This document shows, one piece after another, positions 459 through 7,340 of a stretch of DNA of 64,000 nucleotides (position 1 is its first letter; every line of letters starts with the position of its first letter). This DNA is from Herbidospora galbida (lineage in GTDB: Bacteria > Actinomycetota > Actinomycetes > Streptosporangiales > Streptosporangiaceae): positions 248,001-312,000 of the forward strand of contig NZ_SZQA01000002.1 of assembly GCF_005233835.1 (NCBI RefSeq). Direction: 5' to 3'. Position numbers and translations under genes: made by a program. The notes under the pieces were generated by a model that did not search any database, was not told the DNA's origin, and saw only the letters and a program-made list of their open reading frames with translations.

Positions 459-2513
459 TTGCGCCGTGAAACCCTGACGGCCGTGAACCTTCCGGCGGAA
501 ACCAGTACCTTCGTCGGGCGAGACGCGGAGTTGTCCGAGGTCGGCCGACTGATCACCGAGTCGTCGGTGGTGACGCTCGCCGGTCCGGGCGGCGTGGGGA
601 AGACGCGTCTGGCATTCCGCGCGGCGGCGCAGCACGCCAGGGTTCACCTGGAGCCGGTCCGGGTGGCCGAGTTGGCCGCCGAGCGCAACGGCGATCTGCT
701 CGCCCACGCGGTCTCCGCTGCGCTCGGCCTCCCGGAGCAGTCGGTCCGGCCCCAGGGCGAGGTGCTGGCCGCACACCTCGCCGACAGCCGTCTGCTGATC
801 GTGCTCGACACGGTCGAACACCTCATCGGGCCCGTCCGCACTCTGGTCGGCCAGGTGCTGGCGAAGGCGCCCGGCGTCCGGTTCCTGGTCACCGGCCGCC
901 AGCCGATCGGCCATCCGGCCGAACGCGTCTTCCGGGTACGCCCGCTCGCCGAGGCCGACGCCCTGCGCCTGTTCGCCGAACGCGCCGCCGCCGTCGTCCC
1001 CGGCTTCACCTCAACCGACGAGGTCGCCGAGCTCTGCCACCGCATGGAGGGCCTGCCGCTCGCCATCGAACTGGCCGCCCGGCGGCTGCGCTCGATGACC
1101 CCCAAAGAGCTGGCCGACCGGCTCGACGACCGGTTCGCGCTGCTCTCGGGCCACCCGGGCCGCACCGGCCGGCACGCCGCGCTGCGGACGTCGGTCGGCT
1201 GGAGCCACGAACTGTGCACCCCCGACGAGCGGCTGCTCTGGGCCCGGCTGTCGGTGTTCGCCGGCTCGTTCGAGGCCGAGGCGGCCCAGTACGTCTGCGG
1301 CGACGACCGCCTGCCCAACGTGCCCGGCACCCTGGCCAGACTGGCCGACAAGTCGGTCGTCTGCGTCGTCGGCGAGCGGTTCCACATGCTGGAGACGGTC
1401 CGCGTCTACGGCCGCGAGTGGCTGCGCGAACTCGGCGAGGAGGAGCACCTGATGCTCCGCCACCGCGACCACTACGTCTCGCTGGCCCGCCGCGCCGAGG
1501 CCGACTGGTGCGGCCCCAACCAGGCGTCGTGGTCCGACTGGGCGCGCGGCGAGATGCCGAACCTGCGCCTGGCCCTCGACCGGAGCATCGCCAGCCCGAT
1601 CGGCCTCGACCTGGTGGGCCGCCTGTGGTTCGTCTGGTACTGCCTCGGCCACGCCCGCGAAGGCCGCCACTACCTCGACCGGGCGTTGGAACGTAACACC
1701 GCGGACAGCCCCCAGCGCACCCGCGCCCTGTGGGCCGCCGCCTTCGTCGCCTTCGCCCAGGGCGACCACGACCAGATGGCCATCCGCCTCACCCAGGCCC
1801 GCGAGGCCGCCCTCGCCCAGGAGGATCCGGCCGCCATCGGCCACGCCTGCACCGGCGCCGCGAGCCTGGCCCTGTTCCAGGGCGACTTCGACGCCGTACG
1901 CCTGCTCGCCGAGGAGGCCATCGACCACCTCGACCGCGTCGGCGGCCGCTACGTCGCCCGCCTGTCGGCGATGTCGCTGCTGGCGCTGGCCCTGATCGGC
2001 CGGGGCGACCCCGACGAGGCGGTGATCGTCCTGGAGGGCCAGCGGGCCGCCTGCGAGGCGCTCGGCGAAGAGTGGTCCCGCTCGATGGGCGACCAGATCA
2101 GGGCCGCCGCCGAACTCGGCCGGGGCGACGCCGTCACCGCCGACCGCTACGCCCGCACCTCCCTGCGCACGATCTGGCGCCTGGGCGACGTGATGGGCAG
2201 CGCGATGGCCGTCGAACGCCTCGCCGCCTGCGCCGTCGCGATGGGCGACGCCGTCCGCGCGGCCCGCCTGCTGGGCGTGGGGGAGCGGCTGTGGGCCGAG
2301 TTCGGGCCGACCCACTTCGCGCCGCCCGGTTTCGTCGAGTCGCGTGGCCGCACCGACCGGCGCACCCGCCGGGTCCTCGGCGAACGCGACTATCTCGACG
2401 CCTACGCCGAAGGCCGGCGCATGTCCCTCGACGGCGGCGTCGGCTACGCCCTGGGCGGTCTTCCCAATTCCGGAGCGATGCGGTGGAATCATCCCGCCGA
2501 TGAATGCCGATGA
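459..2513 (+). CDS. STAND-family (NB-ARC/TPR) regulatory ATPase
   Basis: 684 residues from a TTG at 459; a GTG at 483, eight codons later, is an equally possible start and neither has a clear ribosome binding site, fitting translational coupling to the upstream frame. An N-terminal P-loop module shows Walker A GPGGVGKTR (residues 42-50), a Walker B LLIVLD near 112-117 and the NB-ARC GLPLAIELAA motif near 203-212. About 330 residues of TPR-like helices follow to the C-terminus. This is the architecture of AfsR/COG3903-type signal-transduction ATPases, but no winged-helix SARP or LuxR DNA-binding domain is present at either end, so it must act through a partner or as a sensor. The usual Walker B-flanking DN-C-EH sequence reads DTVEH here. 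The last 14 nt overlap the following sigma-factor gene. Confidence 0.8.
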   Translation: MRRETLTAVNLPAETSTFVGRDAELSEVGRLITESSVVTLAGPGGVGKTRLAFRAAAQHARVHLEPVRVAELAAERNGDLLAHAVSAALGLPEQSVRPQGEVLAAHLADSRLLIVLDTVEHLIGPVRTLVGQVLAKAPGVRFLVTGRQPIGHPAERVFRVRPLAEADALRLFAERAAAVVPGFTSTDEVAELCHRMEGLPLAIELAARRLRSMTPKELADRLDDRFALLSGHPGRTGRHAALRTSVGWSHELCTPDERLLWARLSVFAGSFEAEAAQYVCGDDRLPNVPGTLARLADKSVVCVVGERFHMLETVRVYGREWLRELGEEEHLMLRHRDHYVSLARRAEADWCGPNQASWSDWARGEMPNLRLALDRSIASPIGLDLVGRLWFVWYCLGHAREGRHYLDRALERNTADSPQRTRALWAAAFVAFAQGDHDQMAIRLTQAREAALAQEDPAAIGHACTGAASLALFQGDFDAVRLLAEEAIDHLDRVGGRYVARLSAMSLLALALIGRGDPDEAVIVLEGQRAACEALGEEWSRSMGDQIRAAAELGRGDAVTADRYARTSLRTIWRLGDVMGSAMAVERLAACAVAMGDAVRAARLLGVGERLWAEFGPTHFAPPGFVESRGRTDRRTRRVLGERDYLDAYAEGRRMSLDGGVGYALGGLPNSGAMRWNHPADECR

Positions 2514-3063
2514 CCCGCCCCCTCTGACCGACGACGAAGCGGTCGGCCGTTCGCTCGCCGGTGACCTGACCGCCTACGAGGCGCTCGTCACCCGGTACAC
2601 CGCGATCGCCCACCGCACGGCGTTCCTGCTCGGCGCGGGCGACGAGGCCGAGGACGTGGTCCAGGAGGCGTTCGTCAAGGCCTATCGTCATCTGAGGTCG
2701 TTCCGGCGCGACTCGGCCTTCCGGCCGTGGCTGCTGCGCATCGTGGCCAACGAGACCCACAACGCGACCCGCTCACGCGGGCGCCGGGCCGACCTGTCGG
2801 TCCGGCTGGAGGCGGTGCGCAAGCCGGGCGGCCCGGAAGATCCGCAGGACACGGCGGTGGCGGGCGACCGGTCGGCGCGGCTGCTCGCGGCGGTCCGGGC
2901 CCTGCCTGATCGGGAACGCGAAGCGGTGGTCTGCCGGTATTTCCTGCAGTTGTCCGAAGCGGAGACGGCCGAGGTCCTCGACTGCCCGATCGGGTCGGTG
3001 AAGAGCCGCACCCACCGGGGCCTGCGGCGGCTGAGGGAGGAGGTGGATCGTGAACTCCTCTGA
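2500..3063 (+). CDS. ECF-type RNA polymerase sigma factor (first of three)
   Basis: 187 residues from ATG 2500, which overlaps the end of the ATPase gene by 14 nt. Region 2 is recognisable around residues 20-85 (core-binding GDEAEDVVQEAFVKAYRHL, then FRPWLLRIVANETHNATR) and region 4 at the C-terminus (LPDREREAVVCRYF...LSEAETAEVL...IGSVKSRTHRGLRRLREE, the helix-turn-helix that reads the -35). No extra C-terminal domain is present. A membrane protein gene overlaps its 3' end by 14 nt and is very probably its regulator. The overlap with the ATPase suggests that ATPase, sigma and partner form one transcription unit. The target regulon cannot be inferred. Confidence 0.9.
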   Translation: MNADDPPPLTDDEAVGRSLAGDLTAYEALVTRYTAIAHRTAFLLGAGDEAEDVVQEAFVKAYRHLRSFRRDSAFRPWLLRIVANETHNATRSRGRRADLSVRLEAVRKPGGPEDPQDTAVAGDRSARLLAAVRALPDREREAVVCRYFLQLSEAETAEVLDCPIGSVKSRTHRGLRRLREEVDRELL

Positions 3064-3757
3064 CGACCCCTTCGAGGCCGAACTCCGCGCCCTGGGCGAG
3101 TCCCTCCACGTGCCGCCGCCGCCCACCGCGATGGCCGACCGGGTGCTGACCGCGTTGCGGGAGCCCGAGCCTAAGCGCCGGTTCACCACCAAGCGCCTGG
3201 TGGCCGTCCTGGCCGCCTTCCTGGTCGTGCTGGTCGCCGCCACCCCGCAGGGCCGCGCGGCGGTCGCCGAGGTGCTGCGGTTCGCCGGGGTCGAGATCGA
3301 GGTCGGCGGCTCCGCGCCCCTCCCGTCGGGCTCGCCGTCGCCGCTGCCGTCGGAGACGAGCGCCGCCCTGGCCGAGGCGCGCGGGGCGGTGGCCTTCCCG
3401 CTGGTCGTACCGGCCGCGCTCGGCGAACCCGACCAGGTCAGGGTGGCCGACGGAGGCCAGGTCGTCAGCATGTACTGGGACGGGATCCGCCTCGACCAGT
3501 ACGACGGCTCCCTGCGCGAGGTCTGGCACAAACAGCTCGGCGACCCCTACCCGCAGCAGCTCTGGCTCGGCACCACCTCGGCGGTGTGGATCCCCCAGCA
3601 ACACGGCATCGAATACCTGCCCGCGGGCGGCGGGAACCCGGTCTCCCTCCGCCTGGCCGGTCCCACCCTGATCTGGCAGCACGGCCGCGTCGGCCTGCGC
3701 CTCGAAGGCGTGCCCGACGTCGAGGAGGCCAAGAAGATCGCGGCGTCAGCTCGCTAG
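3050..3757 (+). CDS. single-pass membrane protein, putative anti-sigma factor of the preceding ECF sigma
   Basis: 235 residues from GTG 3050, preceded by a strong GGAGGAGG ribosome binding site inside the sigma gene. Topology: ~40 N-terminal cytoplasmic residues including a basic stretch (PKRRFTTKR), one membrane segment (residues ~45-63, LVAVLAAFLVVLVAAT), a Ser/Pro linker, then an extracytoplasmic domain of ~140 residues. No HxxxCxxC zinc anti-sigma motif is seen, so it is not a ZAS protein; the C-terminal half is reminiscent of DUF4367-like extracytoplasmic domains. The gene order and 14-nt overlap are the main argument for an anti-sigma role. Its 3' end overlaps the convergent deaminase gene by 12 nt. 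Confidence 0.7.
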   Translation: MNSSDDPFEAELRALGESLHVPPPPTAMADRVLTALREPEPKRRFTTKRLVAVLAAFLVVLVAATPQGRAAVAEVLRFAGVEIEVGGSAPLPSGSPSPLPSETSAALAEARGAVAFPLVVPAALGEPDQVRVADGGQVVSMYWDGIRLDQYDGSLREVWHKQLGDPYPQQLWLGTTSAVWIPQQHGIEYLPAGGGNPVSLRLAGPTLIWQHGRVGLRLEGVPDVEEAKKIAASAR

Positions 3758-4759
3758 CCAGGCGTCGATGTCGGCGATGATCTCCTTGCGCACCGGCTCG
3801 GGGGCCGTTGACGACCTGATCGACTGGCGGGCCAGCTCCGCCAGCTCGGCGTCGGAGAAGCCGTAGACATCCCTGGCCAGTTCGTACTGCGGCAGCAGCC
3901 GGGCGCCGAACAGGAGCGGGTCGTCGGCGCCCAGCGCGATCGGCACCCCGGCCTCGAAAAGCCTTCTCAGCGGTACGTCCTCAGGACCCCGCGCCACCCC
4001 CAGGCCCACGTTGGAGAGCGGGCACACCTCGCAGGTGATCTGCCGGTCGGCCAGCCGCTCCATCAGCCGCCCGCTCTCGGCGGCGCGCACGCCGTGACCG
4101 ACCCGGTCGGCCCCCAGGTCGTCGACGCACTCGGCGACCGAGGCCGCGCCCAGCAGCTCGCCGCCGTGGGGCACCGCCAGCAGCCCGGCCCGCTTCGCGA
4201 TCCGGAACGCCGCGTCGAAGTCGCGCGCCCGGCCGCGCCGCTCGTCGTTGGACAACCCGAACCCGACCACGCCCTTGTCGGCGTACTGCGCCGCCAGCCG
4301 GGCCAGGGTGCGGGCGTCGAGCGGATGGCGGGTGCGGTTGGCCGCCACGATCACCGCGACCCCGACCCCGGTCGCCCCGGACGCCACCCGGGCCGCGTCG
4401 AGCGCCAACTCCAGTGTCTCGGTCAGGCCGCCGAACCGGGAGGCGTAGCCCGACGGGTCGACCTGGATCTCCAGCCACCGCGACCCCTCACGGGCCTCGT
4501 CTTCGGCCGCCTCGCGGACCAGCCGGTAGACGTCGGAGGGCCGCCGCAGCACCGACCGGGCGATGTCGTAGAGCCGCTGGAACCGGAACCAGCCGCGTTC
4601 GTCGGTGGCGTGCAGCTGCGGCGGCCAGTCCTGCACCAGGGCGTCCGGTAGGTGGACCCCCTGCTCGCGGGCGAGCTCGATGAGCGTTGAATGGCGCATC
4701 GAACCGGTGAAGTGCAGGTGGAGATGTGCCTTGGGGAGTTTGTCGAGTGGGCGCCGCAT
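3746..4759 (-). CDS. add: adenosine deaminase
   Basis: Zn-dependent hydrolase converting adenosine to inosine in purine salvage. From ATG 4759 the protein begins MRRPLDKLPKAHLHLHFTGS, the usual family N-terminus. Metal and catalytic landmarks are all present: the HLHLH pair, VPHGGE (ligand His and proton-shuttle Glu), DRVGHG, and the ALGADDP Asp pair. ATG 4759 is chosen because AGGA lies seven bases upstream; ATG 4765 and GTG 4781-4783 are in-frame alternatives adding two or eight residues. Length (~337 aa) is normal for the family. It is transcribed away from the second sigma-factor gene, with only ~70 bp between start codons, and converges on the membrane protein gene at 3050. Confidence 0.92.
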   Translation of the reverse strand: MRRPLDKLPKAHLHLHFTGSMRHSTLIELAREQGVHLPDALVQDWPPQLHATDERGWFRFQRLYDIARSVLRRPSDVYRLVREAAEDEAREGSRWLEIQVDPSGYASRFGGLTETLELALDAARVASGATGVGVAVIVAANRTRHPLDARTLARLAAQYADKGVVGFGLSNDERRGRARDFDAAFRIAKRAGLLAVPHGGELLGAASVAECVDDLGADRVGHGVRAAESGRLMERLADRQITCEVCPLSNVGLGVARGPEDVPLRRLFEAGVPIALGADDPLLFGARLLPQYELARDVYGFSDAELAELARQSIRSSTAPEPVRKEIIADIDAWLAS

Positions 4760-4832
4760 CTCCATATCCTGCCGCAACAGCACTCAACCCTTCACCCGGT
4801 TCACGCGTTGTGGACGAGCGAAAGGGGAGCCC

Positions 4833-5327
4833 ATGACCGATGAAGACGAAGCGGCCTTCGACGAGTTCGTGGCCGCGCGCAGCACGGCGCTGCTCCGTAC
4901 CGCGATCCTCGTCTGCGGCGCCAGCGCTCACGACGCTGAGGATCTGGTGCAGGGCGCGCTGGAGAAGGTCTACCGCCACTGGTCCCGCATCCGGGCCGAC
5001 AACCCGGAGGCCTACGCCAGGAAAGTGGTGGTCAACAGCGCCATCACCCGCTCGCGCCGCCGGCGCGTGATCCAGGAGATCACGTTCGCCGCGCCGCCCG
5101 ACACCCCCGTCGACGCCCCCGACCTCGGTCTTCGCGAAGCGATGCTGACCGAGCTGCGCAAACTGCCGGCCCGCATGCGGGCCGTCCTGGTGCTGCGCTA
5201 CTGGGAGGACCAGTCGGAGGCCGAGACCGCCGCCCAGCTCGGCTGCTCGGTCGGCACGGTGAAGAGCCAGGCGGCGCGGGGGCTCGCCAGGATCCGAGAA
5301 GCGATGGTCGAAGGAGTGCCAGCATGA
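4833..5327 (+). CDS. SigE-family ECF sigma factor (second of three)
   Basis: 164 residues from ATG 4833 behind an AAAGGGGAG ribosome binding site. It starts with the acidic helix and FDEFVAARSTALLRTAILVCG typical of the actinobacterial SigE-like ECF subfamily, followed by DAEDLVQGALEKVYRHW (region 2.2) and a region 4 with LRYWEDQSEAETAAQLGCS and GTVKSQAARGLARIRE. The stop overlaps the start of the next gene as ATGA, so sigma and partner are translationally coupled. It is about 60% similar by eye to the sigma factor at 6290, indicating a local duplication of the sigma/partner pair. The region 2/4 linker is short and there is no sensory C-terminal extension. Confidence 0.92.
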   Translation: MTDEDEAAFDEFVAARSTALLRTAILVCGASAHDAEDLVQGALEKVYRHWSRIRADNPEAYARKVVVNSAITRSRRRRVIQEITFAAPPDTPVDAPDLGLREAMLTELRKLPARMRAVLVLRYWEDQSEAETAAQLGCSVGTVKSQAARGLARIREAMVEGVPA

Positions 5328-6253
5328 ACGTCGAAGAAGCACTGAAAGAGGCGATGCGCGCCCAGGTGGGGGAGGTCTACGCCCCGCCGTCGATGGGCAG
5401 CGCCGTCCGGCGCCGCCGCCGCCGTTCGCTCGTCCGGTTCCGTACGACCGGAGCCGTGCTGGTGACCGCGGCCGTCGCGATCACCGTCCCGGTCGTCCTG
5501 ACCAACACCACCCCGCAGGCCGGGCCGGCCTCCGGCGCCTCGGCGCCCGCGATCGCGGTGCCCGGGATCGTGGTGCCCGACGTGGTCGGCATGAACGCCA
5601 AGAAGGCCTACCTGCTCCTGGAGCAGGCCGGTCTGACCCCCATGATCATGACCCCCGGAGAGGGGGCCGACAAGGCCGGCGTGGTCGCCGGCGAGAACGT
5701 GATCCTGACCGAGCCCGCCGCCGGAGCCGTCGCCGACCCGAAGGCGCTCGTCCAGATCAAGGTCCCGTGGGTCCCCGCGCCGACCGCCTCTCCCGAGCCC
5801 CCCGCCGACAAGCCGGCGACCACTTCCGACCTGGGCGACCTCGGCGACGGCCTGACCTGGATGGGCGTCCACGTCGGCTACCTGCCCGAGGGCGTCAAGT
5901 GGAGCGGGAACTCCTACGCGGGCGGCTTCGGCCCGAAGTCGGCCACCGTCCCCTACGTCACCGAGGGCCTGGAGGAGGGCATGTACTCCATCCAGGTGAT
6001 CGTCGGCGTCGACCAGAACCTGCTGCGCCGCGACGGGCAGAAGGTCGGCCCCGACACCTGGGTGAACAACTACAACGAGGGCGGCGGCGAGGAGCCGTTC
6101 GGCCCGGCGACCACCCTCACCGCCAGCCGTGACATCCCCGGTGACCAGGTCGTCCAGGTCCTCTTCAGCCCCGACTACAGCGCCTCCCTCGGCGAGGAGC
6201 GCGCCCGCACCGAGATCGCCAAGGTGATCGAGCACATCCGCCTCGAGAAGTAG
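5324..6253 (+). CDS. membrane-anchored PASTA-domain protein, putative sigma-factor regulator
   Basis: 309 residues, start ATG 5324 overlapping the sigma stop. The cytoplasmic N-terminus is ~40 residues with an Arg cluster (VRRRRRRSLVRFR), followed by one membrane segment (residues ~42-60), a short Gly/Ala linker, then a PASTA domain at residues ~84-148, recognisable by VPDVVGMNAKKAYLLLEQAG and the closing ILTEPAAGAVADPKALVQIKV. A Pro-rich linker and a ~130-residue C-terminal domain of no family I recognise follow. PASTA domains bind muropeptide or peptidoglycan in PknB-type kinases and PBPs. Here the context suggests a cell-wall-sensing partner for the ECF sigma encoded just upstream. That role is inference. 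Confidence 0.75.
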   Translation: MNVEEALKEAMRAQVGEVYAPPSMGSAVRRRRRRSLVRFRTTGAVLVTAAVAITVPVVLTNTTPQAGPASGASAPAIAVPGIVVPDVVGMNAKKAYLLLEQAGLTPMIMTPGEGADKAGVVAGENVILTEPAAGAVADPKALVQIKVPWVPAPTASPEPPADKPATTSDLGDLGDGLTWMGVHVGYLPEGVKWSGNSYAGGFGPKSATVPYVTEGLEEGMYSIQVIVGVDQNLLRRDGQKVGPDTWVNNYNEGGGEEPFGPATTLTASRDIPGDQVVQVLFSPDYSASLGEERARTEIAKVIEHIRLEK

Positions 6254-6289
6254 GGCAACCTCCCCGCCCGGTCAGGCGTATGTGAGGGC

Positions 6290-6775
6290 ATGACGGGATT
6301 CGCGGAATTCGTCGCCGCCCGGGGCACCGCCCTGCTCCGGACGGCGTACCTCACCTGCGGGTCCGTCCATGAAGCCGAAGACGTGCTGCAGGCCGCCCTG
6401 GAGAAGGCCTGCCGCAACTGGTCCCGGATCGACGATCGCGATCCGGAGCCCTACGTGCGGCGCATCATCGTCAACACCGTCATCAGCCGGGCCAGACGAC
6501 GGGCGATCCTGCGGATCATCCCCACGGGATCGCCTCCCGACCTGCCGGCGCCCGCCGATGACGTGGTGCTGCGCCACGTGCTCATGGACGGCCTGCGAGC
6601 CCTGCCACCCCGTCAGCGCGCGGTGATCGTGCTGCGCTACTGGGAGGACCTGACCGAGAGCCAGACCGCCGAGATCCTCGGCTGTTCCGCCGGCACGGTG
6701 AAGAGCCAGACGGCCAAGGCCATGGCCCGCCTGCGCACCCTGCTGGGCGAGGAGGCGACCAATGCTGGAGCATGA
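6290..6775 (+). CDS. SigE-family ECF sigma factor (third of three)
   Basis: 161 residues from ATG 6290 with GTGAGGG upstream. It has the same opening (FAEFVAARGTALLRTAYLTCG), region 2 (EAEDVLQAALEKACRNW, YVRRIIVNTVISRARR) and region 4 (LRYWEDLTESQTAEILGCS, GTVKSQTAKAMARLR) as the sigma factor at 4833. The intergenic distance from the PASTA gene is 36 bp on the same strand, so the four genes 4833-7340 may be one operon. Its 3' end overlaps the next gene by 14 nt, the same arrangement as in the first cassette. Confidence 0.92.
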   Translation: MTGFAEFVAARGTALLRTAYLTCGSVHEAEDVLQAALEKACRNWSRIDDRDPEPYVRRIIVNTVISRARRRAILRIIPTGSPPDLPAPADDVVLRHVLMDGLRALPPRQRAVIVLRYWEDLTESQTAEILGCSAGTVKSQTAKAMARLRTLLGEEATNAGA

Positions 6776-7340
6776 CCTCCGGGAGGCGATGGCCGCCGAG
6801 ACCGCGACCCTGGCAGCCGCCCCCGACCTGGCCGAACGCGTCGAACGCCGGGCCCGCAGCCGAAGGTGGCGCACCCGCCTCGCCGTGCTCCTCGTCCCGT
6901 TCCTGGCCGCCGCCGGCTGGTTCCTCGTCCCCCAAGCGCTCGGTACGGGCGCCGTGCCGGCCGACCAGATCATCGACGGCGTACTGGTCACCCATCTGCC
7001 GCCCGGACTGATCAGAGCGCCGGAGGACCCCCCGGACGACGACGATTTCCCGGGGGTCACCGCCCTCTGGTCCACCGGCGGAGGGAAGCCGTTCACGGAC
7101 GGCGGCGACGGAATCTCGGTCTCCGTCTACCGGAGTGCCGACATCGAGAACACCCCGGCCTCGCTGGACGAGTTCGGCGCGGGAGAGCCCCGGGAGATCG
7201 CCGGGAAATGGGGCCGCCACGGCATGATGATGGGCATCGAGGTCTTCTACTGGGTGCCCCGGCCCGGCGTGATCGTCATGGTCATGGCCGTCGGTGCCGA
7301 CCTGGAGCCGGTCGTCGAGGGGATCGTGGTCCCCGGCTAG
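6762..7340 (+). CDS. single-pass membrane protein, putative partner of the third sigma factor
   Basis: 192 residues from ATG 6762. There is a ~37-residue N-terminal cytoplasmic stretch ending [11 protein letters not shown], one membrane segment (residues ~38-56, [18 protein letters not shown]), and a ~135-residue outer domain rich in Gly and Asp with the stretch PPDDDDFPG. No PASTA domain and no zinc-binding anti-sigma motif are present. The position immediately after, and overlapping, an ECF sigma gene is the only functional clue. The stop TAG is shared base for base with the stop of the convergent aminotransferase gene (CTAG, 7337-7340). Confidence 0.65.

Follow-up and report, generated by a model that had tools for sequence, protein, structure and literature searches.

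The window, by which we mean the whole 64,000-nt stretch of a Herbidospora galbida contig analysed here, comes from a genome of 8.3 Mb and contains the gene of a SigE-family ECF sigma factor, sig1, which runs directly into that of a partner protein, par1. The surrounding genes lie in the order sig0-par0, add (minus strand), sig1, par1, sig2, par2, aspC (minus strand), secE and nusG, where we take add to be adenosine deaminase and aspC an aminotransferase, the labels secE and nusG likewise being our assumption. In window coordinates, the features are:

about 2500-3757: sig0-par0, a pair of ECF sigma and partner upstream of add
3746-4783, minus strand: add, between sig0-par0 and sig1
4784-4810, plus strand: predicted autoregulatory ECF promoter of sig1, TCAACC (-35), N16, CGTTG (-10)
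4833-5327, plus strand: sig1, SigE-family ECF sigma of 164 aa, DAED motif intact
5324-6253, plus strand: par1, open reading frame of 309 aa with an ATG start
6255-6281, plus strand: predicted promoter of sig2, GCAAC, 17-nt spacer, CGTAT
6290-6775, plus strand: sig2, SigE-family sigma
6762-7340, plus strand: par2, second partner, without PASTA and with the same N-terminal module as par1

sig1 scores 171.9 bits against TIGR02983 (cut-off 141.55; E 9.5e-51) and carries the Sigma70_r2 and r4_2 domains of Pfam; sig2 matches TIGR02983 with E 6.3e-52. The genes of sig1 and par1 overlap by 4 nt, the ATGA at 5324-5327, and with a sigma over the cut-off immediately upstream the translational coupling of par1 to a SigE-type ECF sigma, proposed earlier from the sequence alone, is confirmed. 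The closest named partner proteins, 83-84% identical to par1, belong to Herbidospora species. As for the upstream pair, no Pfam family matches par0 up to E 1, and sig0-par0 adjoins add in many of the relatives listed.

Within par1, the following parts can be told apart:

5324-5443, plus strand: N-terminal cytoplasmic part and putative sigma-binding module, residues 1-40, conserved
5444-5503, plus strand: predicted membrane helix, residues 41-60, with basic residues on its N-terminal side
5570-5761, plus strand: PASTA domain, residues 83-146, by PF03793 and fold match
5846-6250, plus strand: C-terminal Mog1/PsbP-like domain, residues 175-309, like the C-terminal domain of RseB/MucB

The original prediction had placed a PASTA domain at about residues 84-148, just outside the membrane. 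A profile search locates PF03793 at residues 83-146 with 28.5 bits, above the curated cut-off of 23.2 (E 1.5e-6; profile positions 2-61 of 64), in one stretch and as a single domain, and a whole-genome PASTA scan, with 11 matches genome-wide, scores the same site at 30.8 bits. In an AlphaFold model of par1 built on 65 aligned orthologues, residues ~80-150 reach block mean pLDDT values of 92-97, but 66 for residues 111-120. VIA-align ranks the PASTA domains of S. aureus PBP1 and M. tuberculosis PknB top, with Z 10.6 and 10.3; 60 residues of the former superpose at rmsd 1.3 and 64 of the latter at rmsd 2.9. The best Foldseek E for a PASTA match is only 3.1e-3, at a probability of 1.00, and phmmer of par1 against solved structures returned chance matches only and no PASTA. 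That the PASTA match itself arose by chance is ruled out by the Pfam score, the fold alignment and the presence of the domain in most orthologues. The hydrophobic segment at about residues 41-60 and a PASTA domain that starts at about 81 agree with a position just outside the membrane, on a topology that would be single-pass and bitopic with the N-terminus inside.

PASTA domains are generally found as kinase antennae and as tails of penicillin-binding proteins. In par1, Pfam finds PASTA alone up to E 1, no Ser/Thr kinase domain of the PknB/Stk1 kind appears at that threshold, and the match to the NCBIfam PASTA-kinase model is weak and confined to residues 30-147 (17.3 bits against 450); the protein is thus kinase-free, as had been supposed. 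Two proteins of the same genome, with three and four PASTA matches, look kinase-like by eye, so the usual PASTA-kinase route can exist in parallel. PF03793 matches occur in 197 of 198 genomes of other lineages, most of those listed in frames of more than 550 aa. Two other PASTA proteins stand apart: in the H. galbida genome an open frame of 145 aa (L007:1498-1932, minus strand) has a hydrophobic segment and one PASTA match of 40.8 bits and is too short for a kinase or a penicillin-binding protein, and L008:1-1716 has a terminal PASTA domain on a protein with RCC1-like repeats (by eye).

On either side of the PASTA domain the model varies in quality. Its confidence is modest to low for the N-terminal part and membrane helix, where residues 1-40 are modelled with helices at 3-15 and from 23 and a basic stretch at 29-40, the second helix spanning 23-50 within the low-confidence region. 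The C-terminal domain is predicted with block mean pLDDT values of 91-98, and in this model residues 175-309 form a Mog1/PsbP-like fold. Compared with the C-terminal domain of E. coli RseB, it gives Z 9.6 and rmsd 2.6-2.8 over 89-95 residues; Tsi3 (Z 9.1), MucB (8.9), Mog1 (8.9) and PsbP (similar Z) come close, and the model of a PASTA-less paralogue (L071) puts 3hlz first with Z 10.2 and RseB second with Z 9.6. Because Mog1, PsbP and Tsi3 nearly match the Z of RseB, the likeness to RseB is one of fold and not proof of homology. RseB and MucB also differ from par1 in being separate periplasmic proteins, at 10-17% identity to its C-terminal domain. An RseB-like role for this domain is, on the model, a suggestion only.

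A family-wide search gave matches in 90 of 297 genomes, and all seven genomes of the genus have them, that of H. galbida included. We sorted 108 partner loci into 65 partners behind close relatives of sig1 (set A1) and a remainder of 39 (set A2), most of them paralogues that lack PASTA and follow a sig2-like sigma, leaving out four: two fragments (L062, L098), one frameshifted locus with an apparent PASTA start (L077) and one without an assigned sigma (L080). A set of 62 orthologous sigmas (A4) omits L039, L059 and L061, whose sigma frames are broken; the partners of L050, at a contig end, and L061 are incomplete. The broken sigma or partner frames of L039, L059, L061 and L077 reflect frameshifts or sequencing errors, and the pair may be dispensable in these relatives. 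The 4-nt overlap of sigma and partner recurs in 65/65 A1 pairs, where the choice of start favoured it and almost all of the starts chosen fall at the aligned N-terminus.

What lies outside the membrane is far less constant. Pfam finds PASTA in 52 of the 65 A1 members (E up to 0.01; best 1.4e-18) and not in the other 13, a count with which a reading by eye agrees, and in 0/39 members of A2. Two of the 13 A1 members without PASTA carry the cyclophilin domain PF00160 (best E 1e-29):

L085:4001-4921: cyclophilin-type partner, an apparent membrane-anchored prolyl isomerase without PASTA and C-terminal domain
L088:3332-4240: cyclophilin-type partner, an apparent membrane-anchored prolyl isomerase without PASTA and C-terminal domain

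Both keep the same N-terminal module, stand behind sigmas 75 and 77% identical (tblastn) and retain the synteny of add, sigma, aspC, secE and nusG. As judged by eye, neither has a recognisable C-terminal domain, which makes this domain exchangeable too. Among PASTA-bearing members, the membrane segment (67%) and residues 1-40 (60-62%) lead in mean pairwise identity, ahead of the C-terminal domain (49%) and PASTA (37%); the 62 sigmas reach 80% (mean column identity 81%). The N-terminal part and membrane helix are therefore the best conserved parts of par1 and PASTA the least conserved folded part. With 13 of 65 orthologues lacking it as well, PASTA is ruled out as the core of the switch.

When the presence of PASTA is mapped onto a tree of 70 sigmas, it requires 4 changes (4-5 across bootstraps), compared with a mean of 17.5 for shuffled labels and 0/500 shuffles as low, and well-supported branches force at least 2. 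The history that we prefer from this tree has PASTA gained once and lost or replaced three times, with fewer losses possible; L066 and L116 may never have had the domain.

These patterns bear on the possibility that PASTA only positions the protein, at the septum, a pole or the growing wall, and that the RseB-C-like domain is the sensor. The higher conservation of the C-terminal domain would suit such a division of labour, as would its retention in the PASTA-less paralogues and (by eye) in several PASTA-less orthologues, and PASTA domains are described as localising kinases (PMC13147305). However, the cyclophilin-type members dispense with the C-terminal domain as well, and we regard this alternative as somewhat unlikely. 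For PASTA, we put the role of an accessory antenna or locator ahead of that of a proven muropeptide sensor.

Part of the evidence that par1 works with its sigma comes from the N-terminus. Profile A3, built from the first 62 residues of 29 diverse members, finds, in the H. galbida genome, par1 and the tandem par2 (E 8.7e-6), the next match having E 0.55. In an order-level sample it matches in 149 of 297 genomes, all in the same family among the matches listed, and across 396 genomes of the phylum it adds 18 loci, spread over 17 genomes from other families. Fourteen of these 18 proteins start between -14 and +22 nt from the end of a sigma homologue; no sigma was found beside the other four. Assuming a chance rate of 1%, which is our own figure, the probability of 14 of 18 falling behind a sigma is ~3e-25. 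By eye, several of these distant partners (L125-L142) have propeller-like outer parts, and none of the 14 has PASTA. Within the genome, 11/11 sigmas over the TIGR02983 cut-off have a coupled partner (L173-L183). The outer parts of these partners are varied and mostly unclassified. When the nine other than par1 and par2 were scanned, one exceeded a Pfam cut-off, with a PD40 beta-propeller repeat (E 2.3e-4).

Could par1 be a co-expressed envelope protein, or an activator of the sigma, and not an anti-sigma factor? In its favour, a recognised anti-sigma domain, the class I (ASDI/zinc) kind included, is found by Pfam neither in par1 (up to E 1) nor firmly in the 65 orthologues (E up to 0.01), where a single DUF2275 match reaches 0.0083. 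Weak matches to NCBIfam models are present: par1 matches CU044_5270 over residues 15-73 (E 0.0055), 7/65 A1 members match CU044_5270 at E up to 0.01, and one of the 65 weakly matches NF052375, the NCBIfam 'anti-sigma factor' model (E 2.5e-4). Two of the nine scanned partners, which are of par1's kind, likewise match NF052375 weakly and below its cut-off (E 1.9e-5 and 2.1e-4), and both also weakly match CU044_5270. Against this alternative, the N-terminal profile predicts a sigma neighbour in distant families whose outer parts differ, so a function shared with the sigma is likely needed. We consider it improbable that par1 is a bystander or activator; coupling, synteny and the N-terminal profile together lend strong support to its partnership with sig1.

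Short anti-sigmas such as CnrY, of the ASDII class, have, as does par1, a short helical region before one membrane helix; a search of solved structures with profile A3 gave no relative (best E 1), hence no sequence relation there to CnrY-type anti-sigmas. Among the Pfam matches of the 65 orthologues, none bears the name of the RsgI N-terminal domain. The ASDII class is named in PMC8103513. As described in that source, kinase-regulated ECFs of the ECF43 type have the DAED motif replaced by uncharged residues. The motif is present in 61 of 62 orthologous sigmas and reads DSED in the remaining one, and with DAED intact a kinase-type regulation of the sig1 family was set aside as unsupported.

Upstream of sig1 we find a conserved motif, CTCAACC-N16-GCGTTG, that resembles an ECF promoter. 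Of 67 sigma upstream regions, two (L059, L061) were not assessable, and the 65 judged include the distant slot relatives L100 and L115. CAAC[CT]-N15..18-CGTTG precedes 60 of these 65, with a spacer of 16 in 60/60, compared with 6/13000 in shuffled controls; the strict form TCAACC-N16-CGTTG is present in 57, and the motif is missing from L016, L060, L100, L115 and L116. PASTA, PASTA-less and cyclophilin partner types have this predicted promoter in common. In the 8.3-Mb genome, strict TCAACC-N16/17-CGTTG occurs once, at sig1's own promoter, and exact CAACC-N16-CGTTG-N-GGA once in each genus genome (7/7), at the sigma's own promoter; among the matches listed, genus genomes G001 and G002 have a second exact TCAACC-N16-CGTTG elsewhere. 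A motif restricted to sig1's own promoter fits an autoregulated local circuit, and the promoter sequences suggest that sig1 is probably autoregulated. When at most one mismatch is allowed in the longer motif, it gives 10-19 matches per genome against 2-7 in the control. A regulon drawn from TCAACC-N16-CGTTG with up to one mismatch proved too noisy to use, at 132-165 matches per genome against 25-39 in the backward control. The tandem pair appears to be set apart: GCAAC-N17-CGTA[TA] is found in 26 of 33 sig2-type upstream regions (33 of the 39 A2 members yielded one), 0/67 sig1-type regions and 0/9900 shuffles, so that sig2-par2 seems, by its upstream sequence, to have a promoter class of its own, unlike that of sig1.

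The strict motif, which in this genome marks sig1's own operon only, indicates no cell-wall regulon, with the proviso that such a scan would miss targets with relaxed motifs. This touches a further part of the original prediction, that muropeptide or cell-wall sensing is linked directly to transcription. In that scheme, PASTA is a receptor for muropeptides or lipid II, and bound fragments release the sigma directly, replacing the PASTA-kinase step. The location of PASTA on the sigma partner invites the idea, and the logic exists by way of a kinase in M. tuberculosis, where PknB acts on RseA, the anti-sigma of SigE (PMC10027907), and the outer part of PknB is reported to bind muropeptides (PMC3145798) and mDAP lipid II (PMC6428115). 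The PknB-RseA-SigE system thus shares with sig1-par1 a PASTA region outside and an ECF SigE output. It differs in that PknB is a kinase acting on a separate anti-sigma (PMC10027907), whereas par1 is the coupled partner itself and kinase-free, and in that PknB has four PASTA domains (PMC3145798) and par1 one. Putative ligand residues of PknB are placed in the PASTA3-4 linker (PMC6428115), a site that the single PASTA of par1 does not have.

PASTA columns conserved in at least 70% of the 52 PASTA-bearing orthologues are V84, P85, D86, V87, G89, L99, A102, G103, V126, Q129, P131, G134, G140 and V143, by our reading mostly residues of the fold; D86, in the VPDVxG start, is the sole column that is mainly charged, and the PASTA domain in the window contains no arginine. 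According to the review PMC6151718, the PASTA domain of M. tuberculosis PonA2 bound neither muropeptides nor beta-lactams. Together with the orthologues that do without PASTA, these points lead us to regard a muropeptide receptor as unlikely. What stands of the earlier interpretation is that a SigE-coupled and kinase-free protein has a genuine PASTA domain beyond the membrane; the sensing of muropeptides or the cell wall does not follow from a single PASTA, conserved mainly for its fold, and a promoter motif confined to its own operon.

The nearest parallel in organisation is RsgI of C. thermocellum, which, like par1, combines an N-terminal cytoplasmic domain, one membrane helix and divergent C-terminal sensors; eight SigI/RsgI pairs and a lone RsgI9 are described (PMC12203970). 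RsgI differs in that it pairs with SigI and not with a SigE-family ECF, and in having a periplasmic autocleavage domain; the sensors listed in that source bind carbohydrates or are glycosidase, peptidase-like or unknown domains, none of them PASTA (PMC12203970). We propose, by analogy, that par1 may work like an RsgI-type modular anti-sigma, family membership aside. By its description, RsiV, the anti-sigma of SigV, offers a second likeness, as an anti-sigma that itself binds an envelope-related protein, lysozyme, outside (PMC4183432).

We therefore favour, as reasonably likely, a model in which sig1 and par1 form an autoregulated pair of the sigma/anti-sigma type, with par1 a modular scaffold and PASTA an accessory. 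par1 is probably a scaffold of the anti-sigma kind whose outer domains can be exchanged, PASTA being one optional module; we infer its binding and inhibition of the sigma, as well as any ligand. The basic N-terminal part of par1 would hold sig1 inside the cell, while the outer part, PASTA and the RseB-C-like Mog1/PsbP domain, would read the state of the envelope. An event outside, either a ligand or the loss of a partner followed by proteolysis, would free sig1, which would then, from TCAACC-N16-CGTTG, transcribe chiefly the operon it belongs to. The scaffold would be modular, presenting PASTA with the C-terminal domain, the C-terminal domain alone, or a cyclophilin to a closely related sigma, and PASTA would be an accessory antenna or locator added onto a C-domain core.

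In a broader context, it is tempting to speculate that SigE-family ECFs of Actinomycetota share a sigma-holding plug-in receptor of about 60 residues, with outer domains that may be PASTA, cyclophilin, propeller-like or RseB-C-like, and that in Streptosporangiaceae the PASTA version couples the state of the wall directly to transcription without a kinase; we offer this as a tentative possibility. In titles and abstracts we found no description of PASTA on an anti-sigma or other sigma partner, and its presence there may open a one-step route from envelope to transcription. Nature supplies the variants on near-identical sigmas, with PASTA, with none or with a cyclophilin, and the swap or loss of outer domains while the sigma is kept suggests a plug-in antenna for gene control. 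The PASTA partner family may thereby offer an entry point to the many SigE-family sigmas found in actinomycetes.
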